Shown here: piece after piece, positions 1 to 62,190 of the stretch
Layout: each line of letters begins with the position of its first letter
How positions within the stretch are numbered: the stretch's first letter is position 1
Assembly: GCA_016342755.1 (NCBI GenBank)
Contig: JAEINS010000019.1
Location: forward strand, 1-64,000
DNA: 64,000 nucleotides
DNA from: Melioribacteraceae bacterium
GTDB lineage: Bacteria; Bacteroidota; Ignavibacteria; Ignavibacteriales; Melioribacteraceae
Direction of reading: 5' to 3'
Notes under the pieces: model-generated
The model's input: only the letters and a program-made list of their open reading frames with translations
What the model was told of the DNA's origin: nothing
Database searches by the model: none
Translations under genes and position numbers: made by a program

Positions 1-218
1 ATCAGTTTAAAATGGAAAAAGCTTCCCGAAAAGAGAAGCTTTTGTTGTGGGAGTACATGGATTCGAACCAAGGACCTTCCCGACTGAAGTCGGGACGCTC
101 AAAAGCAAAGTCTAATGTAAATATCTCAAACATGATTTTGGATCAGTTTAAAATGGAAAAAGCTTCCCGAAAAGAGAAGCTTTTGTTGTGGGAGTACATG
201 GATTCGAACCAAGGACCT
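1..218. repeat. Direct duplication of a 77-bp segment carrying the 3' half of tRNA-Val
   Basis: Bases 1-77 and 142-218 are identical, 141 bp apart. The unit holds a small hairpin (agcttcccg / gagaagct) and the T-arm plus 3' acceptor strand of a minus-strand tRNA-Val. The right copy continues into a complete tRNA. The left copy breaks off into a palindrome. The window starts inside the left copy, so the repeat may extend further left. Confidence 0.9.
48..100 (-). pseudogene. tRNA-Val remnant with a palindrome in place of the anticodon arm
   Basis: Reading the minus strand, bases 77-48 match the T-arm and acceptor 3' strand of the intact tRNA-Val exactly. The anticodon arm is replaced by a perfect inverted repeat, tcccgac-tgaa-gtcggga on the + strand (78-95). 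Beyond the shared cgctc (96-100) no D-arm or matching acceptor 5' strand exists. The anticodon loop would have six bases if a five-pair stem is kept, which is not canonical. I therefore read it as a remnant of a partial duplication, not a working tRNA. Confidence 0.75.
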
Positions 219-263
219 CCTGCTTGTAAGGCAGGCGCTCTAAACCAACTGAGCTATACTCCC
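189..263 (-). tRNA. tRNA-Val (anticodon UAC)
   Basis: The minus strand folds as a cloverleaf. The acceptor stem is GGGAGTA/TACTCCC with discriminator A, the D-arm contains AGCTCAGTTGG, the anticodon stem is CCTGC/GCAGG around CTTACAA, and the T-loop is TTCGAAT. The anticodon TAC reads Val codons. The T-stem has one T-T mismatch. CCA is not encoded. A short hairpin with a T-run follows downstream on the minus strand. Confidence 0.93.
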
Positions 264-417
264 ATCAAATATTGATGTCAAACATCATTTCAAAATTAGA
301 TTCTAAATTTATGGAGTTGTAAAATAAAATGCAATAGTAAAAATAACTTTTTTATCAGTTAGGACAAGTCTTAGCATTTTTTTATTTTTCCATTATAATC
401 AAATTTTCTTAATACTG

Positions 418-1095
418 ATGAAAAAACTATCTAAAAAAGCAAAACAAAACTTAGAACTAACAATTATAATAGCTATTGGAGTATTGAGTATACTTTTATG
501 GAATACTCCGGTTATATATCCAATAAAGCTGTTTGTAGTGTTGCTTCACGAAATAAGCCATGGAATTGCCGCCATTTTAACTGGCGGAGCAATAAGTGAA
601 ATAATAGTTTCGTATAATCTTGGCGGATTATGTAAAACCTATTCCGGAAATGAAATTGTAATTGCATCTGCCGGATATTTAGGAAGTCTGGTATTCGGAG
701 TCTGGATGTTTATGTCCGCATACAATTACAACCACAGCAGATGGCTTTGCAACGGATTGGCAATAATGTTTGTGATTGTAACAATTGCATTTATCTCAAA
801 TATTCTTGGTATCTTATTTGCGGTTATCTTTACGCTGGTTTTATTTCTATCACCAAGGTATTTTAATAAAACCGCTCATGTTTATGTGATGAAAGGGTTA
901 GGATTTGTAAGTTGTTTATATGTTTTGGTAGATATAAAAGAAGATTTATTAACACTTGAAAATAGAGTTACGGATGCACATATTTTAGCACAAATAACTG
1001 GTGTAAGTCATTTAGTTTGGGGTTTAACATGGTTCGTAATAACACTTGTCACCGTTTATTTCCTTCTTAAATTCAGTTATAAAAAGGGAATGTAA
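418..1095 (+). CDS. M50-family (M50B-like) membrane metallopeptidase
   Basis: This 225-residue integral membrane protein has about five or six hydrophobic segments. The first spans roughly residues 14-28. A zinc-binding HEISH motif (residues 44-48) sits at the start of a membrane helix, followed by a glycine-rich stretch, as in M50 intramembrane proteases and their M50B relatives. No PDZ domain is present, so it is not a full-length RseP. The M50B-like group is mostly uncharacterised, and the substrate is unknown. The next gene starts 19 bp downstream, so the two may be co-transcribed. The second zinc ligand motif (NxxPxxxLDG in classical M50) is not recognisable, which lowers confidence in protease activity. 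Confidence 0.72.
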   Translation: MKKLSKKAKQNLELTIIIAIGVLSILLWNTPVIYPIKLFVVLLHEISHGIAAILTGGAISEIIVSYNLGGLCKTYSGNEIVIASAGYLGSLVFGVWMFMSAYNYNHSRWLCNGLAIMFVIVTIAFISNILGILFAVIFTLVLFLSPRYFNKTAHVYVMKGLGFVSCLYVLVDIKEDLLTLENRVTDAHILAQITGVSHLVWGLTWFVITLVTVYFLLKFSYKKGM

Positions 1096-16071: not shown

Positions 16072-17391
16072 ATGTCTAAAAGAAATGTAATTATTATGGG
16101 TGCGGCCGGCCGCGATTTTCATAACTTCAATGTATACTTTAGAGACAACGAAGATTATAATGTTGTTGCATTTACAGCTACTCAAATTCCTAATATTGAT
16201 GGAAGGGAATATCCTGCTGAATTAGCCGGCAGACTTTATCCTAAAGGAATCAAAATATATGAAGAGTCTGAGTTAGTTAATCTTATTAAAAAATTTGATG
16301 CCGATGAAGTAGTATTTTCGTATTCAGATGTTCCATTCGAATATGTAATGACTAAAGCATCAATTGTAAATGCTGCTGGAATTTCTTTTAGATTACTAGG
16401 CGGCGAAGAGACTATGGTTAAAAGTACAAAACCGGTTGTTGCTGTTTTAGCTGTCAGAACAGGCTGCGGTAAATCTCAAACTTCAAGAAAAGTTGTTGAA
16501 GTATTAAATGCGCACGGTAAAAAAGTTGTTGCAATCAGGCACCCAATGCCTTACGGTGATTTAGTAAAGCAAAAAGTTCAAAGATTTGCGGAACTTGAAG
16601 ATCTTAAAAAACATGAATGTACTATTGAAGAAATTGAAGAATATGAACCACATATAGCAACAGGTGGTATTATTTACTCTGGTGTTGATTATGAAGCAAT
16701 TTTACGCGAAGCTGAAAAAGAAGCAGATGTAATTCTTTGGGATGGCGGTAATAACGATATGTCGTTTTATAAAGCTGATTGTACAATGACAGTTTGCGAT
16801 CCATTAAGACCAGGGCATGAAATGTCATATTACCCGGGAAATACTTCTTTAAGATTAGCTGATGCCGCAATTATAAATAAAATTGATACAGCATGGCCAG
16901 AAGATATTCAGGAAGTTAGAGATAATATAATGGCTGTTAATCCTACAGCAACAATTATTGAAGCTGCTTCTCCGTTAACAGTTGAAAACCCCGAAATTAT
17001 TAGAGGCAAAAGAGTTTTGGTTGTTGAAGACGGTCCTACATTAACTCATGGCGAAATGCAGTTTGGCGCCGGAACCGTTGCAGCCCAAAAAATGGGTGCG
17101 GCTGAAATAGTTGATCCTCGTCCATATACCGTTGCATCAATTACAAAAACATTCGAAAAATATCCGGAAATTGGCGTTCTTCTTCCGGCAATGGGTTATG
17201 GCGAACAGCAAATGAAAGATCTTGAAGATACTATTAATGCAGTTGATTGTGATTCGGTTGTAATAGGTACTCCAATTGATTTAGGCAGGATTCTAAAAAT
17301 AAACAAACCTTCAACCCGTGTAAAATACGATTTACAAGAAATTGGAAATATTACTGTAGAAACAATATTGAAAGAAAAAGGAATTATATGA
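16072..17391 (+). CDS. COG2403-type P-loop protein (annotated in databases as GTPase or cyclic 2,3-diphosphoglycerate synthase-like)
   Basis: The 439-residue cytoplasmic protein starts with a nucleotide-binding-like strand (NVIIMGAAGRDFHNFN). At about residues 130-140 it has a P-loop variant, AVRTGCGKSQTS. Further segments such as LWDGGNNDMSF and VNKID-like AAIINKIDTAWPEDI suggest a SIMIBI-type NTPase. Relatives include archaeal cyclic 2,3-diphosphoglycerate synthetase, but the function in bacteria is not established. It overlaps the carbamate kinase gene by four bases (ATGA) and follows glmS by 12 bp. Tight coupling to arcC suggests a role in carbamoyl-phosphate, arginine or nucleotide-precursor metabolism. 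I would not assign the cPGS reaction. Confidence 0.75.
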   Translation: MSKRNVIIMGAAGRDFHNFNVYFRDNEDYNVVAFTATQIPNIDGREYPAELAGRLYPKGIKIYEESELVNLIKKFDADEVVFSYSDVPFEYVMTKASIVNAAGISFRLLGGEETMVKSTKPVVAVLAVRTGCGKSQTSRKVVEVLNAHGKKVVAIRHPMPYGDLVKQKVQRFAELEDLKKHECTIEEIEEYEPHIATGGIIYSGVDYEAILREAEKEADVILWDGGNNDMSFYKADCTMTVCDPLRPGHEMSYYPGNTSLRLADAAIINKIDTAWPEDIQEVRDNIMAVNPTATIIEAASPLTVENPEIIRGKRVLVVEDGPTLTHGEMQFGAGTVAAQKMGAAEIVDPRPYTVASITKTFEKYPEIGVLLPAMGYGEQQMKDLEDTINAVDCDSVVIGTPIDLGRILKINKPSTRVKYDLQEIGNITVETILKEKGII

Positions 17392-18329
17392 AAAAATTAG
17401 CAGTTGTAGCTTTTGGCGGAAACGCCTTGTTACGTGGAGACGAAGTCGGGACGATTGAAGAGCAGGAGAAGAATACTAAAGATAGTTGTGAGAAATTAGT
17501 TGGTTTGCTGAAGAATGATTATAATCTAATTATAACTCATGGAAACGGACCACAGGTTGGGAATATTTTATTACGTAACGAAGCCGGATACAATACCTAC
17601 AAAATTGCTAAAATGCCTTTAGATATTTGTGTAGCTGATTCCCAAGGAGGAATCGGCTTCATGATTGAAAGACAGATGAGAAATGTATTGAATGAATCAG
17701 AAATAGAAAAAAATGTGATTACATTGGTTACTCAAGTTTTAGTAGATAGAAATGATGAAGCATTCGAGAATCCAACAAAACCTGTTGGTGCTTTTTATCT
17801 AAAAGAAGAAGCTGATCTTCTTTCTACATCAAATGGATGGACGTTCAAAGAAGATCCTCGTAAAAGAGGATGGCGTCGTGTAGTTGCATCTCCAAAACCA
17901 ATGGATGTATTTAATAATGTACTTATTAAAAGTTTATCAGAAGCTGGAAATATTGTAATAGCAGCCGGTGGCGGTGGTGTTCCGGTATATAGACATGAGA
18001 ACAATTACCTTGAAGCAATAGAAGCTGTTATTGATAAAGATCTTGCTTCTGCTCTTTTAGCAAGACAAATTGGTGCTGATCAGTTATTTATAATTACCGA
18101 TGTGCCAAAAGCGTATATCAATTTCAATAAGCCAAATCAAAAAGCTCTTGATACAATTACAGTTGAAGAAGCAAAAAAATATGTTGCTGAAGGACAATTT
18201 GCTGCCGGCAGTATGGGACCCAAAATTAATGCGGCAATAAATTTTGTAGAAAACGGCGGCAGTGAAGCAATTATAACTGAAGCAAAGGAACTTGAAAAAG
18301 ATAATTGCGGAACAAGAATAGTTAAATAA
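17388..18329 (+). CDS. arcC: Carbamate kinase
   Basis: This enzyme interconverts carbamoyl phosphate plus ADP with carbamate plus ATP; in fermenting bacteria it usually makes ATP from citrulline-derived carbamoyl phosphate. The 313-residue protein has the amino-acid-kinase fold with AFGGNALL near the N-terminus, HGNGPQVGN at about 46-54, the AAGGGGVPVY loop and the C-terminal GSMGPKINAA segment. All are diagnostic of ArcC. It overlaps the upstream COG2403 gene by four bases. A strong terminator separates it from the OTC gene, so OTC may be transcribed separately or by read-through. Confidence 0.95.
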   Translation: MKKLAVVAFGGNALLRGDEVGTIEEQEKNTKDSCEKLVGLLKNDYNLIITHGNGPQVGNILLRNEAGYNTYKIAKMPLDICVADSQGGIGFMIERQMRNVLNESEIEKNVITLVTQVLVDRNDEAFENPTKPVGAFYLKEEADLLSTSNGWTFKEDPRKRGWRRVVASPKPMDVFNNVLIKSLSEAGNIVIAAGGGGVPVYRHENNYLEAIEAVIDKDLASALLARQIGADQLFIITDVPKAYINFNKPNQKALDTITVEEAKKYVAEGQFAAGSMGPKINAAINFVENGGSEAIITEAKELEKDNCGTRIVK

Positions 18330-48380: not shown

Positions 48381-48416
48381 GGATAAATGATTTTTGAATA
48401 ATTGTTAAGGGCAAGA

Positions 48417-48986
48417 GTGGCAAAATTCAAAGGTGAATTCAGAGTTGAATCATCAAGATTAAAATCGTGGGATTATTCTACACCAGGTTGGTATTTTGTG
48501 ACAATTTGTGTTAAGGATAACAAAAATTGTTTCGGAGCAGTTGATGACTATAATGTTAAGTTAAATAACATTGGTGAAATTGTTGAATTGTTTTGGAAAG
48601 AAATACCAGATCATTATAATTTTGTTGAATTGGATGAATTTGTCGTTATGCCAGATCATTTTCATGCAATTATTATTTTGAATGAACAAAGTAATGTTGA
48701 GGTAAAACATAAAAAAAATATTAATAATGTAGAGACGGGGCATGCCCCGTCTCTACGGATTAAAAGGACAATTACATTAGGTAACATAATTGGGTCATTC
48801 AAATCAGCAGTAACAAAAAATATTTATAAAAATTGTCATTTAAATTTCTCATGGCAGACACGATTTTATGATAGAATTATCCGCAACGAAAGAGAATTAT
48901 TTAATATCAGAAAATATATTTCACAAAATCCGTTAAAATGGGAGTTAGACAAAGATTCCCCGAGTAATTGTGTTTTTGATAAGTAA
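48417..48986 (+). CDS. REP-associated tyrosine transposase (RAYT, Y1/IS200-like)
   Basis: The roughly 189-residue single-strand nuclease of the HUH family acts on palindromic REP sequences. HFH (His81, His83 from this start) in VMPDHFHAIIIL is the metal site, and the catalytic Tyr167 lies in IRKYISQNP. The N-terminal WDYSTPGWYFVTICV segment is typical of RAYTs. GTG 48417 with AAGGG five bases upstream is preferred over TTG 48402. Palindrome copies flank the gene, and one copy (48729-48756) lies inside the reading frame, encoding VETGHAPSLR between the HUH motif and the Tyr helix. The frame stays open, so the protein may still work. Confidence 0.9.
   Translation: MAKFKGEFRVESSRLKSWDYSTPGWYFVTICVKDNKNCFGAVDDYNVKLNNIGEIVELFWKEIPDHYNFVELDEFVVMPDHFHAIIILNEQSNVEVKHKKNINNVETGHAPSLRIKRTITLGNIIGSFKSAVTKNIYKNCHLNFSWQTRFYDRIIRNERELFNIRKYISQNPLKWELDKDSPSNCVFDK
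48729..48756. repeat. 28-bp palindrome, copy B, inside the RAYT coding region
   Basis: Each half is gtagagacggggca. It differs from copies A, C and D by a symmetrical pair of changes that keeps the palindrome perfect. It is read in frame in the transposase gene. Confidence 0.95.
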
Positions 48987-50496: not shown

Positions 50497-51546
50497 GTGT
50501 TAACAAAAGAAGAAATCATTGCGTATCTGCAAACTTCTGATGAAGAATCTCAAAAAGAACTTTTCGAAAAAGCCAGCCAGGTTAAGACCAATCTGTTAGG
50601 AAAAAATGTTTATTTACGCGGAATTATTGAGCTGAGTAATATTTGCCAGAAAGATTGTTATTACTGCGGAATTAGGAAATCAAATAAAAATGTTAACAGA
50701 TATTTAATGATAGAAGATGAAATTCTTAAATCGGCTGAGTGGGCATATAAAGCCGGTTATGCTTCAATTGTACTTCAGTCTGGTGAGAGAACCGACGATA
50801 AATTTGTTAGAACTATTAGTGATGTATTAAAAGAAATTAAAAAACTTTCGGACGGAAAACTTAGAGTAACACTTTCGCTTGGCGAACAGGAAAAAGAAGT
50901 TTATAAATGCTGGTATAATCTGGGTGCCCATAGATATTTGTTAAGAATTGAATCATCAAATAAAGATCTATATCACTTTATTCATCCAAAGGAATATTCA
51001 TTTGAGAAAAGATTAGAATGTCTGAATAATCTGAAAGAAATCGGTTATCAGCTTGGAACCGGTGTTATGATAGGACTTCCGCACCAGACTTACGAAGATT
51101 TAGCGAATGATATTCTGTTTTTCAAAAAACTTGATGTTGATATGGTTGGGATGGGTCCGTATCTTGAACACAAAGATACACCGCTGCCTGATAAAGATAC
51201 AATAATTGTTAAGAATAAAGAGGAACTTTATCATCTTGGATTAAGAATGATTTCTGTTTTAAGATTAACAATGCCAACAATAAATATAGCCGCAACAACT
51301 GCTCTGCAAGCGTTAAATAGTTTTGGAAGAGAAAAGGGAATTCTCTGCGGTGCTAATGTTTTTATGCCTAATATTTCTGAAGGCGAATATAGACCAAGTT
51401 ATCAGTTATACGATAATAAACCATGTATTGATGAAACTTCAACAGAATGTCTCGATTGTGTGGGAAAACGGATTGAAATGATTGGGGAAAAAGTGGCTTT
51501 TGATGAATGGGGAGATTCTCTTCATTTTAGAGAACGAAATTGTTAG
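50497..51546 (+). CDS. hydE: [FeFe]-hydrogenase maturase HydE-like radical SAM enzyme
   Basis: HydE is a radical SAM enzyme that helps build the dithiomethylamine-bridged diiron centre of [FeFe]-hydrogenase. The 349-residue protein has the radical SAM triad C50-x3-C54-x2-C57 in CQKDCYYCGIRK. It also has an accessory cluster motif C310-x7-C318-x2-C321 at positions nearly equal to those in Thermotoga maritima HydE. The length fits the family. PylB-like relatives are an alternative, but the C-terminal Cys motif favours HydE. The start is GTG with AGGA upstream. hydF, hydG and hydrogenase genes are not in the window. Confidence 0.85.
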   Translation: MLTKEEIIAYLQTSDEESQKELFEKASQVKTNLLGKNVYLRGIIELSNICQKDCYYCGIRKSNKNVNRYLMIEDEILKSAEWAYKAGYASIVLQSGERTDDKFVRTISDVLKEIKKLSDGKLRVTLSLGEQEKEVYKCWYNLGAHRYLLRIESSNKDLYHFIHPKEYSFEKRLECLNNLKEIGYQLGTGVMIGLPHQTYEDLANDILFFKKLDVDMVGMGPYLEHKDTPLPDKDTIIVKNKEELYHLGLRMISVLRLTMPTINIAATTALQALNSFGREKGILCGANVFMPNISEGEYRPSYQLYDNKPCIDETSTECLDCVGKRIEMIGEKVAFDEWGDSLHFRERNC

Positions 51547-51762: not shown

Positions 51763-54700
51763 ATGCAGATAACAGGAAAACAAATATCCAGTCTACGCGT
51801 AGATGCAAAAGATTTTATTAACCTTTATGCTTCTTTAGGCGGAAGAGCCGAAAACTTTATTCCAGACCATATTTTAAGCAGTTTAAAGAATTTTGTCAGG
51901 ATTTGTCATGAAGAACCAATTGATCCGGCAAAACAGCAGGCTGAGATAAATAAATATATTCTTGAGCTTAAAGAACTAATTCCCGGGTACACAGATGTTT
52001 CGTTAATGCTGTTTCCGCACGAGGATTCTAAAGCTTTTCAATATCGTTCTAAGAAACAAAGTTTTGAAAACAGGCTGAAGTATTTCATTGATACCGAATC
52101 GGTTGATGATAAAACTAAAGAGCAGACTATAAATATTTTGAATACACATGATTATTCTGTCGGGACTCCGCCTGTAAGTCAGGCACATTTGGATCTGATG
52201 TACAAACTATGTCTTGGTGATGATGTTCAGGAATTAAGAAAATTCCGTGATGTAATTGGTGTTATAGGCGATGTTGAAGAAGCTCAGTGGAACTATTTTA
52301 TGGATGTTCTTGAGCAAATGATAATTCAGTCTTCGCATTATACAACTGCCGCTGAAAAAACTGATTTCTTAAATAGAACCAATCTGACGGTTAATTTTAA
52401 GGGTCTTAACGGATTTATAAAAACAGTTGTCGGTGGTGGATCGGATACAGTAATTGGATTGTTAAGTGAAGAAGTATTTGATGAAAGTGCGGTTAAAGTA
52501 ATTGAATTTAAAAATGGTGAAGACTTATTTAATAAGATTAAAACTGATAGAACAAGCATATTTATTGTTAAGGTTAAAAATATGCGCACTAACATTTTTA
52601 ATGAGAAAAAATGGTTCCCGTATTTAACCAGATTAGTTATAGTTGATGATTCACCGGAATCGGGAAGTACAAATACATCGCTGGTATTTTGTTTTCATAA
52701 TAAAATTATAAACACACTTAATAAAGTTCATACAAAAAAATTAGGCGCGTTAGCTAATAGTCAGCTTAACTTACGATTGATACTGGACAAAGTTAATTTA
52801 GATAATCTTGAAACTTTTAGAAAATGTACTGAATCTAAAATTGCGGATTACGAAGAGGAACTTAAAGAACTTAAAACTGAGCAGTTGGGTGAAGATAAAA
52901 ATCTTCTTAAAGATATAAACCTGTTCAAGTTCAATGAGTTTGCAAAGCAAATTATAAAAGATAAATATGCAATAACAAAACTGCATGATTATATAGTGCT
53001 GGTTCAGAACTGTAAAGATCCTAAAAAGCTGAAGAAACAGAATTCTGAATTAATAAATGAATTTGAAACCAGAACCAAAGCTTATTTTTATTCGAATATA
53101 GAACAGGTTAAGATTGCTACCATTGTAGAAGGCGGTGGTAGAAGTCAGATTAGAACTTACGGAAAATATTTACTGCAAAGAAAGTTAAAAGCACTAAATC
53201 CTAAGATTATTGAAAAATGCCAGACTATAATTGATATTATACCGGATAACTATCAGAGAACTTTAAATAATCATTTTCATAAAAATTTTGGAATCAATTT
53301 ATTCTTAGAAAAATATAAAGAGTATATAACTAAAGTTGAAAATGAAGCCGATAACAAAGGCAGATTTAAGAATCTGCTGATTGATCTTGGTATTAAAGAG
53401 GCTTATGATAAGAAATCAGCTGATGAACAAAATATTATTAAGGACTTTGTAAGTAATCTTAGCAATCTGGAAATAACGTCTATAGCTGATGATGTGCAGA
53501 TGATAATCCGTGACATCCTTTCTGATAGTGTTTTAATGCCGTACATTCTTTTTAATCAGGAAGCATCCTGGGAATATAAAGATCTTTTCCCGGAAGACAG
53601 ATTTGATATAAATCCGTTTGATCTTGAAATAGGATTGAATGCCAGCAAACACATCGATTTTGAAAGACTGCATCATCGTTTAAGCAGAATGAAAAATACA
53701 TTCCAATTATTTGATGATACTGGAAACCTTTGGGATAGATTCTGCGAAAACTTAACTATAATTATCAATGATCCGTCTAACCCTTCCGGTTATACCGATT
53801 TTAATGATGTTTCGCTTATCAAATTCTTGAAGTTCTTAAACAACAGTAAAATAACGCTTTTACTTGATGAAGCTTACAATGACGCGATTAAAGTTGATGA
53901 TCCGGACGAACCAAAATGGAGAACCATTTCCAGATATATAATGAACAATATTAGTTCGTTAACAAACATTAGTGTAGTTTCTTCATTATCAACAACAAAA
54001 AACTTAGGCGCAACCGGAAGCAGATTAGGATCTATTGTTGCAACTCCGGCCAGAACTGATGTTATTAACTTTGCAAAGAAACAAAATGGAACTGAGAAAG
54101 GGAATACAAATTCTCTTTATATGCTGGTTAACACTATTGAAGCCGCTCAGTTAGCTAAGAAAATTAAAGACAGAATGGAATCTGAACTTCCAAAAGAAGC
54201 TTCAAGATTTAAAATTAAAGCCAGAATTGAAAAATATATAATTGATGAAATTGAGAGTTTCAACGATAACAAAGCTATAGTTAAGCAGGGAAAAGCAATT
54301 AAAAGATTCTCGCCGTTCGAAGGAAGTCCGTTGCATCTTTTCTTGCTTGAAGAATTATCGAGCCTGGATAAACTGGATGTTTTAGATTTACCGGATGATT
54401 TTAAGTATAAAGGAGAACCTTTCTTTAAGTATTATCAAAGCCATTTAGTAAAAGAGATAAATAAATTTAGAGTTAATAAAAATTTTAGAAGTGAATCTTT
54501 AAAACGTTTGAAGCTATCGAAAAAAGTTGCGGCAAAAGTTATTGAAGACAGATTTGAACAGTTTGGAGAAATACTTCCTTCGGATGGTTCTTATTTATTT
54601 AATATTCAATTAAAAGAATTTTTCTCCTATCAGGATCTTGAAAAGTTTACTAAAGTACTTGCCCGGGAAAGAGGAATTGCTGTAATACCTTACCAGACTG

Positions 54701-57700
54701 GCTTTTTACGTTTTTCACTTGGTGATTATATTGAAGGGACAAGTCAGAGTTATGAGGTTTTTGAAAAAGAACTAGAGAATGCTCTCAATATAGTTCTCAA
54801 ATATTGGGAGGAGTTTTATTCAGTAAAATCGAAAAATGAAAACAAAGAGAAACGTTCTGAAGATATTCTTAAAGAAATTTTTGCAACTGTATCTGACAAA
54901 GAATTTATAAATAATGTTTTAACAGACTTTAATATTGTTAAAAACATTAAGAAAAAAGGAAAGGGAAGTCTGGCAATAAGTAATATTATGACTTTATATC
55001 ACGCCTTCCCAAAAGACTGTGGTGTAAGTATAAATACAATTGCCGATTCTAAAAATTCAGTTTTTGAGTTTTATGAAAACGTTGGAAAATGCAGAGACCT
55101 TAACAGTTTTATAGAAAGTAAAGCCTTCACAAAAGTATACGAAAACTTGCTGCCTCAGATTTATAAAAATATTCCTCAGATCAAAAACCTTGATTATAAC
55201 ACGGTTATATCTAAGTATGGTAAACCAACTATACTAAAATATATAAATAATAAGATGTCGTTTAAGCCAAATGATTTTGTACTTGATGATCCTGATGAAA
55301 GGAACATAATGACAGAGATTTTAATTGAGCTTGAAAAAATTCTTTTCTCTGACGCTAAAGTAAAGATAATGGCGTTAAATGCCAGTGATGATATTGCTTC
55401 CGATAAAGCAAAACTTGAAGGAACAAATATAATTCTTCGAAAATATATTCAGGAATTACTTATTCATTTTAATCTTCCTTTTGAGCAGCCGTCACAGGAA
55501 CCTACAATAGAAGATATTATTAACAAATCGGTTGTTGTCTTTAAAGATGTTGTTGGTGCAAGTGTAAGCGAATTTAATTTAGTTCAGTATCTGCACGGGT
55601 TTGTAAACAAAATTAGTTTTAACGCGGGCGATGAATCCTTTACATCAAAGATTGACGGTTATGTCCGTAAAGTATTAAACGATGCTGTTATGGAATCTTC
55701 TGATTCTACTGCAAATAGATTATTGAAGTTCTATATGTTAAAGCTCAATAATAACTTTGTAAACAGACTTCAGCCTAAAATAAGCAAGTGGTATAAAGAG
55801 TTTGCGAAGACAGATGAACTTGAAGTTAAAATGTTCAACGAACAATTTGTTTTTAATATTGTTGAAAGTGAAATTGAACAGATTATAAATGATATAATTA
55901 TTTTGAAGGATCTTAAAATAACAGAAGATCAGGTACACAAAAATGTTCGTGATGTTGTTCTGTTTTTTATAGGATTAATGAACAAAACTAAATCGACAGA
56001 ATATTATGATAAGTATAATCACACATTAATTAAGTTTGTTGAAACAAGTTTCAGAGAGCAGAACTCATACCTGAATGAAATGATTCAGCACGGCTTAACC
56101 ATTCATAGTAATTTAGACAACAGATTAGATACGCTTGAAAAATTTGAAGACGGTTCACTTAAGTGGATTGACGATGTTATGAAAAAGTGCGGTGTAATTG
56201 GGTCTGAACAACCTGTACAAACTCATACACGCATTGTAACTGATGCAAAGAAACGTGAATATCCTTTCCACAAAATTGACAGGAAAGAAACCTGTAAAGA
56301 AAATGTTGATCAGAATAGAAATGATTATATTAAGAATTTAGATACCAAACTTCGTTCGGGATTTTTTGGGCGCAGAGTTGCTAATTTTGTTGAGCACATG
56401 GATCCGAATGATTATAGATGTAAAGTAATTAAGCATGGTTTAGTTAAGGTACTATACGTTATTCAGAAGTCGTACATAAAATATCTTACTGATAACTACA
56501 GATTATTAACTGCCGATGAATTATCGCTGGATGATCTTAAAGATTTTGTGCCGGATGTAATCTTGTTCTACGGTGCTCCTGAAAAGGTTATTTCTTATCC
56601 GCAAATTGGATACTTCGATTTAAAAGGACCTTTTGGAAATATTAAAACTTTAGTTACACCGCTTAAAAAGAAAGTGGATTATTTTGGCGATATAAAGAAA
56701 CCCTGGCTTACGATGATAAATGAAAAAGTTAAGGAAATGGGAGGAATGCCTGTTCACGGTTCTTTATTTGCAATTGAAGAAGAAGACGGAAGTGTATTTG
56801 TTGTTCAGATAGAAGGTGACAGCGGTGTTGGTAAATCTGAAATGCTTGCGGCTATGATGCTTAAATGGCTTCGTAATGATTTGCCTGGTATTAGATCGAT
56901 AAAACTGATTGCCGGAGATATGTTTTTTGTATTCCCGGATAAAGATGGAAATCTTTATGGTGTTGGAACTGAAGACGGTGATTTTTCAAGAGTAACTGAT
57001 TTTGATCCGGACTTTATTAAGTATTACAATTCGCTGTTTGAAAGCGCAGCCGACAGCAACGTTGAAGATCTTAATTCGAGAAGTACAATTAGCGGACTTT
57101 GTGATATTAAGATGCCGTATAAGATTGATATAATGCTTACTGCGAGCAATTATGGCCGTGAAGAAGCTGGTATTACCAGATATAAAAATCCGGAAAATTT
57201 CTTGTTGTATCGTGATTCGCATGGCGAAAGAAAAGAGAAAGCAACAAGTTCTGATAATCCTCATTTCCAAAGAACATTGTTGAGATATTCTGGTGATAAA
57301 GATATTGTTGAAGTTCTTGATAAACATGGAAATTATCTTGATGATATTCTTGATTGGGAAAAAGATGAATTTACAAATATGTTCTATTTATGTTCTTCAT
57401 ATAAACTGATGGACAGAATTGATGTTGAAGAAGTTGTAAATCAAATTTTTAACAAGAAGGAATTTGTTCATACTAACGGTAAAAAATATAAAATTAAAGA
57501 TGTTAAATTCGATATTATTAAAAACAGATTCCTTGCTTCGGTAAAATCAACTCCGGTTGATGAAGAAGAATCTGTTGCTACAGAAATTCAGATTACAAGA
57601 GCTTTATTTAGCGGAATATTTAATTCATTAGCAAGTACACCTGCCGGTCAGCCTTTTATTGCTGAAGAAGGTCAGTATGAAATTACTAAGAGTCTTGTAA

Positions 57701-58428
57701 ATATCTTAAAAGGCGGTGATAAAGAAAAAGGGCACGGAAAACATATCCAGCTTGGTATTTTATCAACTGATCTTGGCAGGAAAGGTAAAGAGATTACAGG
57801 TCCTCAGGCAGCGGCGCAGGATATGATTAAAATGATTCAGGAAGTTAGAATTGCTAAGCCTGAAATTAACGCGAATAAAAATCTTGTTCAAAAAGCTGTT
57901 TATGAAAAATATGAACATGTGTTTAAAGAGAATCAGCATAACTCCGAAGTATGTAGAAATAACTTTTACTTATTTCAATTAGAACAAATGAGAAAAGCTA
58001 AATTTGTTAGAATGGATAATCTGAAAGAGAGTGTTGATTTATCAAATATAAAAGGTTTTGTTCAGGTTGATGCTGGTAAGGAGTTTAGCCCGTTATTAGT
58101 TACTCCAAATATAAACGTAGAGCTAAACGGCTTTACAGAAACTTACGAACAACTAATGAGCCTTCCGGGTAATATTGAGTTTGCTGAAGAGTTTTATCAG
58201 AACACAGATAAATTATATGTTGCAGAAGGTTACAACAAAGCAACTATTGAAAATAATATGATTCTGCAATTGCTTCTGCTTAATGGTTATTTAACTATTG
58301 AAGATTTAACTAAAGGCAGAATTACTGAAAAGGTAAACAGGGAAACTTTAGCGGCTGCAAAATATGCTGTTGTTAAAAAGTTGTCAGATTCTAAAACTGC
58401 TGAAAAGAAAAAAATAAGTAAAAAATAA
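51763..58428 (+). CDS. Giant protein: PLP aminotransferase fused to an HprK/PEPCK-type P-loop kinase domain
   Basis: The 2221-residue, soluble-looking protein (no signal, no membrane helices) has two recognisable parts. First, a fold-type I aminotransferase at about 640-1010: Asn673 in NDPSNPSG, Asp702 and Tyr705 in LLLDEAY, PLP Lys746 and Arg754 in STTKNLGATGSRLG, and carboxylate-binding Arg983 in FLRFSLGD. A possible PLP-phosphate loop GGGSDT is at 224-229, implying an insertion of about 360 residues. Second, a kinase-like domain from about 1640: His1665 in VHGSLFAI, Walker A GDSGVGKSE (1685-1693) and Asp1719 in LIAGDMFF. This matches the HPr kinase order HG...GDSGxGKSE...xD. Residues 1-200 and 1050-1600 are helical and unassigned. 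It is probably monocistronic. The catalytic reaction is unknown. Confidence 0.8.
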   Translation: MQITGKQISSLRVDAKDFINLYASLGGRAENFIPDHILSSLKNFVRICHEEPIDPAKQQAEINKYILELKELIPGYTDVSLMLFPHEDSKAFQYRSKKQSFENRLKYFIDTESVDDKTKEQTINILNTHDYSVGTPPVSQAHLDLMYKLCLGDDVQELRKFRDVIGVIGDVEEAQWNYFMDVLEQMIIQSSHYTTAAEKTDFLNRTNLTVNFKGLNGFIKTVVGGGSDTVIGLLSEEVFDESAVKVIEFKNGEDLFNKIKTDRTSIFIVKVKNMRTNIFNEKKWFPYLTRLVIVDDSPESGSTNTSLVFCFHNKIINTLNKVHTKKLGALANSQLNLRLILDKVNLDNLETFRKCTESKIADYEEELKELKTEQLGEDKNLLKDINLFKFNEFAKQIIKDKYAITKLHDYIVLVQNCKDPKKLKKQNSELINEFETRTKAYFYSNIEQVKIATIVEGGGRSQIRTYGKYLLQRKLKALNPKIIEKCQTIIDIIPDNYQRTLNNHFHKNFGINLFLEKYKEYITKVENEADNKGRFKNLLIDLGIKEAYDKKSADEQNIIKDFVSNLSNLEITSIADDVQMIIRDILSDSVLMPYILFNQEASWEYKDLFPEDRFDINPFDLEIGLNASKHIDFERLHHRLSRMKNTFQLFDDTGNLWDRFCENLTIIINDPSNPSGYTDFNDVSLIKFLKFLNNSKITLLLDEAYNDAIKVDDPDEPKWRTISRYIMNNISSLTNISVVSSLSTTKNLGATGSRLGSIVATPARTDVINFAKKQNGTEKGNTNSLYMLVNTIEAAQLAKKIKDRMESELPKEASRFKIKARIEKYIIDEIESFNDNKAIVKQGKAIKRFSPFEGSPLHLFLLEELSSLDKLDVLDLPDDFKYKGEPFFKYYQSHLVKEINKFRVNKNFRSESLKRLKLSKKVAAKVIEDRFEQFGEILPSDGSYLFNIQLKEFFSYQDLEKFTKVLARERGIAVIPYQTGFLRFSLGDYIEGTSQSYEVFEKELENALNIVLKYWEEFYSVKSKNENKEKRSEDILKEIFATVSDKEFINNVLTDFNIVKNIKKKGKGSLAISNIMTLYHAFPKDCGVSINTIADSKNSVFEFYENVGKCRDLNSFIESKAFTKVYENLLPQIYKNIPQIKNLDYNTVISKYGKPTILKYINNKMSFKPNDFVLDDPDERNIMTEILIELEKILFSDAKVKIMALNASDDIASDKAKLEGTNIILRKYIQELLIHFNLPFEQPSQEPTIEDIINKSVVVFKDVVGASVSEFNLVQYLHGFVNKISFNAGDESFTSKIDGYVRKVLNDAVMESSDSTANRLLKFYMLKLNNNFVNRLQPKISKWYKEFAKTDELEVKMFNEQFVFNIVESEIEQIINDIIILKDLKITEDQVHKNVRDVVLFFIGLMNKTKSTEYYDKYNHTLIKFVETSFREQNSYLNEMIQHGLTIHSNLDNRLDTLEKFEDGSLKWIDDVMKKCGVIGSEQPVQTHTRIVTDAKKREYPFHKIDRKETCKENVDQNRNDYIKNLDTKLRSGFFGRRVANFVEHMDPNDYRCKVIKHGLVKVLYVIQKSYIKYLTDNYRLLTADELSLDDLKDFVPDVILFYGAPEKVISYPQIGYFDLKGPFGNIKTLVTPLKKKVDYFGDIKKPWLTMINEKVKEMGGMPVHGSLFAIEEEDGSVFVVQIEGDSGVGKSEMLAAMMLKWLRNDLPGIRSIKLIAGDMFFVFPDKDGNLYGVGTEDGDFSRVTDFDPDFIKYYNSLFESAADSNVEDLNSRSTISGLCDIKMPYKIDIMLTASNYGREEAGITRYKNPENFLLYRDSHGERKEKATSSDNPHFQRTLLRYSGDKDIVEVLDKHGNYLDDILDWEKDEFTNMFYLCSSYKLMDRIDVEEVVNQIFNKKEFVHTNGKKYKIKDVKFDIIKNRFLASVKSTPVDEEESVATEIQITRALFSGIFNSLASTPAGQPFIAEEGQYEITKSLVNILKGGDKEKGHGKHIQLGILSTDLGRKGKEITGPQAAAQDMIKMIQEVRIAKPEINANKNLVQKAVYEKYEHVFKENQHNSEVCRNNFYLFQLEQMRKAKFVRMDNLKESVDLSNIKGFVQVDAGKEFSPLLVTPNINVELNGFTETYEQLMSLPGNIEFAEEFYQNTDKLYVAEGYNKATIENNMILQLLLLNGYLTIEDLTKGRITEKVNRETLAAAKYAVVKKLSDSKTAEKKKISKK

Positions 58429-60342: not shown

Positions 60343-62190
60343 ATGAAAATTGACGAAATATTAAATATAGTTAGCTCTAAAGAGAATTCAGCATTCTTTT
60401 ACACTTCTCAAAATAATAGTGCCGGCAAATCAATATTATTTAATGGCAAAGCCGTAAAGATTGAATCATACAGATTAAGTGATATAGCTGAAGCATTGCA
60501 CGAAGTTGAAGAGAAAGTAAAGAAAGGATTTATTGGATATGGTTTTATTTGTTATGAATCCGGTTATGCCTTCGAAAATACTCTTAGTGAATTAGTTGAT
60601 GATAAGTTTATTAAACCTTTACTGAAATTTTGTTTTTTTGATAAAAAAGATGTTTCGTTTTTTAGTAAGAATGATATTGACTTTTCAAACGCTCCCGATA
60701 TTTTAAGAAATCTGAAATATGATATTTCGGATTTTAAATTAAGTACTTCTCAAAAAAAATATACTGAAGATATTAAGAAGATTAAGAGAGAGATAGCTGA
60801 GGGAAATACTTATCAGGTTAATTATACCGCAAATAGTCAGTTCGTTTTTAATGGTAACACTAGCCACTTATTTCTTCACCTTTTGTTTAATCAATCGGCA
60901 TCCTATTGTGCTTTTATAAACAATGAAGATGAGATGATTTTATCGGCTTCACCAGAACTGTTTTTCCACCAGTCTGGCAGCACAATTATTACACGACCAA
61001 TGAAAGGAACCATTAAAAGAGGGAAATGTTTAGAAGAAGACTTTAAACGGAAAGTTGAATTAGAAGAAAGCAGTAAAAATAAAGCAGAAAATATTATGAT
61101 TGTTGATCTGCTTAGAAATGATTTTGGACGGATATCAAAATTCAATAAAGTGTTGGCTGAAAATATTTTTAGAATTGAAAAATATGAATCTCTTTATCAA
61201 ATGACATCTACAGTAAAAGGGGAGCTGCAAGACAAAAGCCTAAAATCTATTTTTGAAAATACTTTCCCTTGCGGATCAATTACCGGAGCTCCTAAAATTA
61301 GTACAATGAAAATTATACGCAAATTAGAAAATCGTGACAGAGGTATTTATACCGGAGCAATTGGAATTACAGATGCTGAAAGTTCCCATTTTAACGTTGC
61401 TATCCGTACTATCAAAATTAATATAAACGGCTTGGGAGAAATGGGTATTGGCAGCGGTGTTATTTGGGATAGTGATCCATTAGAGGAATATGAGGAAGCA
61501 AAATTAAAAGCGAAATTTCTTACTTCTCCTAACAGTTATTTCGAAATATTTGAATCTATGCTTTTGGAAAACGGGACAGTTTTTTTACTTGAGAAACACA
61601 TAGAGAGACTTAAAGATACGGCTGATTATTTTTTATTCAGATTTGAAGAAAAAAAAATTATTGATGCAATAAACAAGAAAATCAATTCTCTTAATGGCGG
61701 AAGTAAATATAAATTAAAACTGATTCTCAATAAGTGGGGACTAATAAATATCGAGTCATCACCTATATTGGTAAATATGAGTGGGGTTAAAGTACTACTG
61801 TCAGACAAAAGAACAGATTCGGATAACAAGTTTCAATATTTCAAAACTACAAATCGCCAATTATATAATGGCGAATTTCAGTTAGCCAAATTGAATAATT
61901 ACGATGAAGTGATTTTCCTGAATGAAAAAGGAGAAGTAGCAGAAGGCAGTTTTACAAATATATTTATCAAACAAGAAAATGGTGTTTTTACCCCTCAAAT
62001 TTCTTCGGGTATTCTTAATGGAGTATTCAGAAAATTTTTGCTTGAACAAAATAAAACGTATTCAGAAAAAGTTCTTACAATTGATGACTTGAGATCAGCT
62101 AAAGAAATATTTTTAACAAACTCAGTTAGAAAAACCATCTCTGTTAGCGAACTTAAAATTTCTGACCAAGAAATACTCATATATAGCTAA
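60343..62190 (+). CDS. pabBC: Aminodeoxychorismate synthase component I fused to aminodeoxychorismate lyase (PabB-PabC)
   Basis: The 615-residue fusion makes 4-aminobenzoate for folate. Residues 1-405 are the chorismate-binding PabB domain, with the core segments ITRPMKGTIKRG, NIMIVDLLRNDFGRI, PCGSITGAPKISTMKII and GIGSGVIWDSDPLEEYEE. Residues about 410-615 are a class IV PLP aminotransferase-type lyase with GEVAEGSFTNIFI and the following FTPQISSGILNG substrate loop. Such fusions are known in many bacteria. No pabA (glutaminase) gene is adjacent, so the amidotransferase subunit must be elsewhere or shared with TrpG. Confidence 0.93.
   Translation: MKIDEILNIVSSKENSAFFYTSQNNSAGKSILFNGKAVKIESYRLSDIAEALHEVEEKVKKGFIGYGFICYESGYAFENTLSELVDDKFIKPLLKFCFFDKKDVSFFSKNDIDFSNAPDILRNLKYDISDFKLSTSQKKYTEDIKKIKREIAEGNTYQVNYTANSQFVFNGNTSHLFLHLLFNQSASYCAFINNEDEMILSASPELFFHQSGSTIITRPMKGTIKRGKCLEEDFKRKVELEESSKNKAENIMIVDLLRNDFGRISKFNKVLAENIFRIEKYESLYQMTSTVKGELQDKSLKSIFENTFPCGSITGAPKISTMKIIRKLENRDRGIYTGAIGITDAESSHFNVAIRTIKININGLGEMGIGSGVIWDSDPLEEYEEAKLKAKFLTSPNSYFEIFESMLLENGTVFLLEKHIERLKDTADYFLFRFEEKKIIDAINKKINSLNGGSKYKLKLILNKWGLINIESSPILVNMSGVKVLLSDKRTDSDNKFQYFKTTNRQLYNGEFQLAKLNNYDEVIFLNEKGEVAEGSFTNIFIKQENGVFTPQISSGILNGVFRKFLLEQNKTYSEKVLTIDDLRSAKEIFLTNSVRKTISVSELKISDQEILIYS

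Follow-up and report, generated by a model that had tools for sequence, protein, structure and literature searches.

The node joining phosphoenolpyruvate (PEP) and oxaloacetate is among the best-studied points of metabolism, and the described proteins closest to the one reported here are the ATP- and GTP-dependent PEP carboxykinases (PEPCK; Pfam PF01293 and PF00821; structures 9e32, 3dt2 and 1j3b), HPr kinase/phosphorylase (HprK; PF07475), and the fold-type I aminotransferases that use pyridoxal phosphate (PLP), such as 1o4s, 3ftb and ACC synthase. Oxaloacetate is the keto product of an aminotransferase that suits PEPCK. A pyrophosphate (PPi)-dependent PEPCK is found in limited but diverse bacteria, most of which also have an ATP- or GTP-dependent enzyme, and is evolutionarily unrelated to those, according to a review (PMC8100219). 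The window analysed here, a 64,000-nucleotide stretch of a Melioribacteraceae contig (JAEINS010000019.1), contains a single gene whose 2221-residue product appears to join an aminotransferase to a PEPCK-like domain; this two-domain architecture, which draws on predicted structures, is well supported. Each part is of a known kind; our searches of the open-access literature turned up no description of the pairing, of the size or of the split aminotransferase. The sequence-only reading of this DNA, which saw an aminotransferase fused to an HprK/PEPCK-like kinase and knew of no described enzyme with such a pairing or size, agrees with our search of that literature, in which none of the titles listed concerned an aminotransferase-PEPCK fusion, subscription papers lying outside it. 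The gene is a single uninterrupted frame of 2221 codons with every residue listed in that reading at its position: Asn673, Asp702, Tyr705, Lys746, Arg754, Arg983, His1665, the loop at 1685-1693 and Asp1719 are identical in all 44 rows of an alignment of the window protein with 43 complete, non-redundant homologues (2193-2244 residues). The PLP lysine and the Walker A lysine are thus kept together in 44 of 44.

The aminotransferase domain

Residues ~128-1020 are predicted to form a complete fold-type I aminotransferase interrupted by a large insertion. The Pfam family Aminotran_1_2 (PF00155) matches residues 628-808 above its cut-off (E 1.4e-9; 38 bits against 19.7), covering the middle of the profile only (125-271 of 361). 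An AlphaFold model of residues 1-1200, built from 44 sequences, had a mean predicted local distance difference test score (pLDDT) of 81.5 and a pTM of 0.79, with pLDDT below 50 around N673. When this model was supplied to Foldseek, 131 PDB chains were matched at E <= 0.001 (best E 1.5e-6), and nearly all of the 50 matches listed are named fold-type I PLP enzymes; the TM-scores were low because the fold is split. VIA superposed the aspartate aminotransferase of T. maritima (1o4s) over 360 of its 384 residues (Z 16.6; root-mean-square deviation (rmsd) 3.6; model 71..1017) and HisC (3ftb) over 326 of 334 (Z 15.9; rmsd 3.3; model 128..1018). These alignments of whole aminotransferases place the start of the core near residue 128, with ~565 extra residues; the boundary is approximate, being drawn from several VIA rows that begin at 127-129 against chain residues 21-32, together with conservation. 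Judged by spacing against an aminotransferase of the host (L093), ~380 extra residues separate G134 from the D576-D577 loop, and ~100 lie between R754 and R983. As modelled, the protein shares the full fold and the cofactor and carboxylate positions of 1o4s, 3ftb and ACC synthase, but differs from them in its extra residues, its partial match to the Pfam profile and its PEPCK-like partner.

Comparison of profiles by hhalign also tied this region to the host's own aminotransferases (P 2.5e-9; nine off-target profile pairs gave 0.09-0.61), pairing W603, N673, the D-E-A-Y at 702-705, K746 and R754 with their counterparts. The lysine, aspartate, tyrosine, asparagine, two arginines and stacking aromatic expected of the active site (K746, D702, Y705, N673, R754, R983 and W603) are present in 44 of 44 rows, as are D576-D577 and G134-T-P-P. 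The aminotransferase proposed from the sequence thus stands, and the predicted structure of residues 640-1010 is not an unrelated fold; of the extent first given to the domain, 640-1010, the active-site part holds, but the start does not, since it lies near 128 and the insertion splits the fold.

Within the insertion (~196-490), strands and helices alternate at 219-327 and helices follow, and E456-G-G-G-R460 is invariant. Secondary structure had suggested a degenerate second aminotransferase at 190-500; this was not supported by hhalign (P 0.11). When all 44 insertion sequences were run against Pfam no consistent family emerged, the commonest match, FapA (17 of 44; best E 0.00081), being taken as chance.

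The PEPCK-like domain

A PEPCK-like fold is predicted at ~1445-2033, and is favoured over the HprK-like reading. The AlphaFold model of residues 1022-2221 had a mean pLDDT of 74.9 and a pTM of 0.61; Foldseek gave 72 matches at E <= 0.001 (best E 2.7e-5), of which the best 50 are all PEPCK, and PEPCK accounts likewise for 50 of the 50 matches listed by VIA. The leading VIA superposition lays residues 1445-2033 over residues 10-549 of the PEPCK 9e32 (349 residues, rmsd 5.0) with a Z of 13.7, a score to be read with caution, as a best Z of ~14 can be reached by largely helical models that lack any clear match in Foldseek. By hhalign, the domain was aligned with ATP-PEPCK from relatives of the host at P 4.3e-5 (0.34-0.6 for other segments of the protein against that profile). 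The PEPCK motifs Y-A-G-E-I-K-K, M-H-C-S-A-N and G-L-S-G-T-G-K-T pair in order with Y1640-F-G-D-I-K-K, V-H-G-S and G-D-S-G-V-G-K-S; the motifs were also aligned to those of the ATP-PEPCK 1j3b, a match of E 0.42 only. Three further pairings, of low confidence and made partly by eye, are E-G-G-C-Y-A-K with E1737-D-G-D-F-S-R, N-T-R with N1771-S-R, and I-M-L-T-A-D with I-M-L-T-A-S. The positions read as PEPCK-type from these motifs, namely Y-x-G-x-x-K-K, H-x-S, the P-loop K-S/T, the metal aspartate and N-x-R, are kept in 44 of 44 rows; Y1640, G1642, K1645, K1646, S1667, S1692, R1743, N1771 and R1773 are each invariant, as is T1489-R1490, in which R1490 may, as a suggestion, correspond to R65 of E. 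coli PEPCK. The protein parts from the ATP and GTP enzymes in its HprK-type P-loop, in Gly1718, in an arginine that replaces the PEPCK lysine at 1743, in being fused, and in scoring 11.9 bits against the 26.5 required by PF01293 (17 of 44 members at E <= 0.1, best 0.0034); because this cut-off was missed, the domain is called PEPCK-like and not PEPCK proper.

A second protein stands between this domain and PEPCK. AYP99509.1 (569 residues; L089:5377-7086) is encoded on the L. fermentum plasmid CP033373.1, is annotated as phosphoenolpyruvate carboxykinase, and was the one distant PEPCK-like protein matched among plasmid records. It is 28% identical to the domain over 290 columns (E 2e-8 in the collection search, 2e-16 in a single comparison) and shares with it Y-F-G-x-x-K-K, H-G-S, G-D-S-G-x-G-K-S-E, D-M and N-x-R, motifs by which it may be read as a bridge to PEPCK. 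It differs in standing alone, without an aminotransferase; its PEPCK function is known by annotation only, and it too falls below the PF01293 cut-off (24 against 26.5 bits). Used as a query, AYP99509.1 matched the giant gene only, in 2 of 296 genomes, and among plasmid records nothing besides its own was matched.

The sequence-only reading had weighed an HprK-like protein kinase, controlling or controlled by the PLP domain, against a PEPCK-like reaction. With HprK the domain shares the P-loop G-D-S-G-x-G-K-S-E and a preceding His-Gly-Ser, but it also has, as in PEPCK, an upstream N-lobe and Y-x-G-x-x-K-K. An HprK identity was judged the less likely for the match to a whole PEPCK fold and for these motifs upstream of the P-loop, despite the better score of HprK and the spelling of the P-loop; the whole-PEPCK match, with its substrate and metal positions, favours the PEPCK-like reaction over the protein kinase. 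The superfamily assignment of the P-loop domain survives without the HprK-like label, to which the invariant PEPCK-type positions are opposed. Residues 1640-2000, first given as the kinase, do hold the P-loop region and are not predicted to adopt an unrelated fold; the domain begins earlier, residues 1445-1640 belonging to the PEPCK N-lobe. Neither HprK nor PPi-PEPCK is among the best 50 Foldseek or VIA matches listed, which is not evidence against either. A separate, true HprK is encoded elsewhere in the host genome.

Against Pfam, the whole window protein yielded Aminotran_1_2 above the cut-off and a sub-threshold NACHT match at the P-loop, with the HPr-kinase and PEPCK families not listed; PF07475 was absent from the window protein's matches at E <= 0.1 and reached that level in 11 of 44 members (best 0.0012). 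The Pfam families named in the first reading are thus borne out for the aminotransferase and not for Hpr_kinase_C or PEPCK. Its statement that the first and middle thirds lack an assignment holds in part: the first third belongs to the aminotransferase from ~128, and 1445-1640 to the PEPCK N-lobe. The features are collected in Table 1.

Table 1. Giant gene and the parts of its product, with coordinates on the window
Feature	Coordinates	Strand	Remarks
Whole gene, 2221 residues, ATG to stop	51763..58428	+	Single open frame; near-equal length in 43 complete homologues
Residues 128-195, N-terminal part of the aminotransferase fold	52144..52347	+	G134-T-P-P and Y193-T194 invariant
Residues ~196-490, insertion within the aminotransferase fold	52348..53232	+	Boundaries estimated by spacing relative to a normal aminotransferase
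Residues ~491-1020, remaining aminotransferase	53233..54822	+	W603, N673, D702, Y705, K746, R754, R983
Lys746, expected PLP Schiff-base lysine	53998..54000	+	44/44; pairs with the S-K lysine of host aminotransferase
Residues ~1021-1444, mostly helical	54823..56094	+	Contains the least conserved stretch, 1241-1400
Residues ~1445-2033, PEP-carboxykinase-like fold	56095..57861	+	
Residues 1640-1646, Y-F-G-D-I-K-K, PEPCK-type substrate/metal motif	56680..56700	+	Y, G, K and K invariant
Residues 1685-1693, G-D-S-G-V-G-K-S-E, P-loop	56815..56841	+	HprK-type spelling; 44/44
Residues ~2034-2221, C-terminal extension, mostly helical	57862..58425	+	

Proposed reaction and competing explanations

With a site that makes keto acids and a PEPCK-like site in one chain, the simplest meeting point is oxaloacetate, and we therefore reasoned that the protein may be a stand-alone bifunctional enzyme joining a dicarboxylic amino acid, most likely aspartate, to PEP by way of oxaloacetate. 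We place this just short of an even chance; that aspartate, oxaloacetate and PEP are the substrates is about evenly balanced. The PLP domain, through Lys746, would exchange the amino group of the dicarboxylic amino acid, most likely turning aspartate into oxaloacetate, and the PEPCK-fold domain would decarboxylate and phosphorylate the oxaloacetate to PEP; in the carboxylating direction, PEP and CO2 would instead give oxaloacetate, which would then be aminated to aspartate. As to the metal ligands, the direction, the phosphoryl donor and channelling, we infer that Lys1646, His1665 and Asp1719 could hold the metal, that a nucleotide or PPi would be bound as donor at the 1685-1693 loop, and that oxaloacetate, labile and scarce, might pass between the sites of one chain without release. 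More tentatively, and somewhat further below an even chance, the protein would be a single-chain aspartate-PEP interconverter in which oxaloacetate is handed between the sites, and a further kind of PEPCK beside the ATP and GTP types, converting aspartate, a keto acid and a phosphoryl donor to PEP, CO2 and an amino acid or, in reverse, acting as a CO2-fixing aspartate synthase. If true, a fusion enzyme leading from aspartate to PEP (or the other way) would be a solution to this node that our searches did not find reported, probably built to contain oxaloacetate, and would give a divergent PEPCK-like family its first functional context.

A number of observations weigh against this proposal, in addition to the rmsd and the limit on the Z score given above. 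The C-terminal model is of moderate quality, with pLDDT below 50 at 1488-1529, 1639-1642, 1687-1689, 1741-1776 and 1819-1831; these stretches take in R1490, Y1640, the centre of the P-loop, R1743 to R1773 and the lid, and the PEPCK residue equivalences therefore rest on sequence. The best Foldseek row has a TM-score of 0.15 by query and 0.27 by target. The HprK profile outscores that of PEPCK (P 1e-6 against 4.3e-5), both profiles being shallow, and a global-mode profile alignment with PEPCK failed, with 6 columns. Pfam matches of the 44 domains were all weak (NACHT in 42, nSTAND3 in 23, PEPCK_ATP in 17, Hpr_kinase_C in 11), and a PDB profile search ranked the ATP-PEPCK 1j3b (E 0.42) under an oligosaccharyltransferase subunit and Rab11. 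Glycine occupies position 1718 in 43 of 44 rows where ATP-PEPCK has aspartate, a site which we take to be the acidic position Asp268 of the E. coli enzyme. Fold matches of the PLP domain spread across several specificities, among them aspartate aminotransferases, HisC, ACC synthase and C-S lyases, and some 900 of the 2221 residues (~196-490, 1021-1444 and 2034-2221) are without assignment. The host also has an ATP-PEPCK and 13 other genes matching PF00155 (14 with the giant gene), which makes the giant protein dispensable for the ordinary reactions.

Alternatively, the PLP and PEPCK-fold halves may act in sequence on a compound other than oxaloacetate, the kinase half phosphorylating another amino or keto acid and the PLP half transaminating, eliminating or decarboxylating the product; CobD, a PLP enzyme acting on threonine phosphate, offers a model. 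NCBIfam gave weak aminotransferase-type matches only, the best including the GntC cyclodehydratase and CobD together with tyrosine transaminase; the three PDB profile matches of the N-terminal half are all ACC synthases; and the HprK-type P-loop and the PEPCK already present in the host are consistent with such a role. The invariant Y-x-G-x-x-K-K, H-x-S and N-x-R are not obviously needed by an unrelated kinase substrate, and we consider this explanation unlikely, though worth keeping in view.

Less probable again, and in our judgement rather improbable, is that the phosphoryl half is a PPi-dependent PEPCK (EC 4.1.1.38 type), with 1021-1444 and 2034-2221 as its extra parts. PPi-PEPCK is large, and the C-terminal half, at ~1200 residues, is near its size; HprK can use PPi, and the P-loop is of the HprK type. 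The patchy occurrence beside an ATP-PEPCK in the host also recalls PPi-PEPCK, most carriers of which have a second enzyme (PMC8100219). The same review gives PPi-PEPCK as unrelated in evolution to the ATP and GTP enzymes (PMC8100219), yet the domain of the giant protein aligns with those.

We regard it as very unlikely that one domain senses for the other, either a phosphotransferase set by a non-catalytic, amino-acid-binding PLP domain or the reverse. Domains commonly serve as sensors, and the acidic D576-D577 is unusual, by eye, in a loop usually like N-E-A; against this, residues for PLP chemistry, beyond those for binding, are invariant, the match of the kinase domain extends over a whole PEPCK, and no conserved neighbour fit to be a protein substrate was seen. 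That the gene is decayed or an artefactual fusion is scarcely credible and is already refuted by conservation, since a single frame-broken locus among 54 (L029) and what remains of the 3' end of another copy at L025 are set against 43 complete homologues of near-uniform length and ratios of nonsynonymous to synonymous change (dN/dS) of ~0.02-0.16 where estimable.

Distribution, conservation and neighbouring genes

A scan of GTDB species genomes recovered 54 loci, at 55-74% identity; this is a lower bound, because the scan requires exact short peptides near residues 172-186, and distant members may escape it. By record title the loci belong to Bacteroidota/Bacteroidetes (or one of its families), Ignavibacteriae, Calditrichota and Chlorobiota, and they are labelled throughout as metagenome-assembled genomes save for two Ancylomarina records; the carriers thus include two named strains, Ancylomarina euxinus M1P and Ancylomarina sp. 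DW003, apparently isolates, so that direct testing is possible. Before the 44 rows were counted, 12 of the 54 loci were dropped because a contig end truncates them or, in L029, the frame is broken, as well as L057 (on the same contig as L002), L004-L006 (matches cut by contig ends) and L001 (the window itself). The window protein groups as sister to the homologue of G004.

Among near relatives, 5 of 58 genomes have a match, and the gene is patchy more widely: the C-terminal half was matched in 2 of 395 genomes sampled across the phylum and in 4 of 294 of a class sample, and the N-terminal half in 3 of 245 of a class sample, each count including the host's own genome. Every match in these samples is a frame of ~2200 codons or is cut by a contig end; whichever half served as query, these genomes yielded neither a split nor a single-domain form. 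No relative was found when viral contigs were searched with the window protein or phage records with the PEPCK-like domain.

The gene is under purifying selection: the dN/dS range above was obtained in every segment where dS could be estimated across seven pairs, dS being saturated for some or all segments in three of them. The most variable stretch in the 44-row alignment is 1241-1400. At L029 (587-7062) the gene lies in two frames, with the break between residues 417 and 464, through sequencing error or decay. At L025, a remnant of the 3' end of a second copy (17307-17573; 81 residues, 49% identical to residues 2127-2207) is followed by a second ridA (17739-18131); the intact gene lies ~8 kb away with a ridA of its own. 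The preceding open reading frame (ORF) runs into the remnant, and a lost duplicate or a misassembly is possible.

No conserved operon was seen in 44 neighbourhoods. Of the 38 nearest neighbours at 20 loci, ten were run against Pfam; one had no match, and nine were of different kinds (transposase, DUF3843, zinc transporter, RNase Y, peroxidase, AAA, Asn synthase, RidA and MFS). The upstream ORF (>= 90 residues), present at 19 of the 20 loci, is separated from the giant gene by 114-806 bases. RidA clears reactive intermediates of PLP enzymes, and in 8 of 44 neighbourhoods, from two distant groups, ridA lies tail-to-tail with the giant gene less than 500 bases downstream (one instance Pfam-confirmed; three changes on the tree, omitting three rows with too little flank); this adjacency supports the proposed enzyme weakly, as it was spotted after all neighbours had been viewed. 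The product of asnB uses aspartate, which is counted in favour of the proposal too, and in a single clade (L046, L025, L051 and L032; 4 of 44) an asparagine synthase gene of 554 codons lies upstream of the giant gene, on the same strand, at 134-307 bases.

In the window itself, the giant gene is adjoined upstream, on the same strand, by a gene for a radical SAM maturase of [FeFe]-hydrogenase of the HydE type (50497-51546), and close downstream lies a chorismate-binding enzyme fused to a class IV aminotransferase, of the PabB-PabC type (60343-62190). A small protein encoded among metabolic genes at 48402-48986 resembles, by eye, a REP-associated (Y1-type) transposase.

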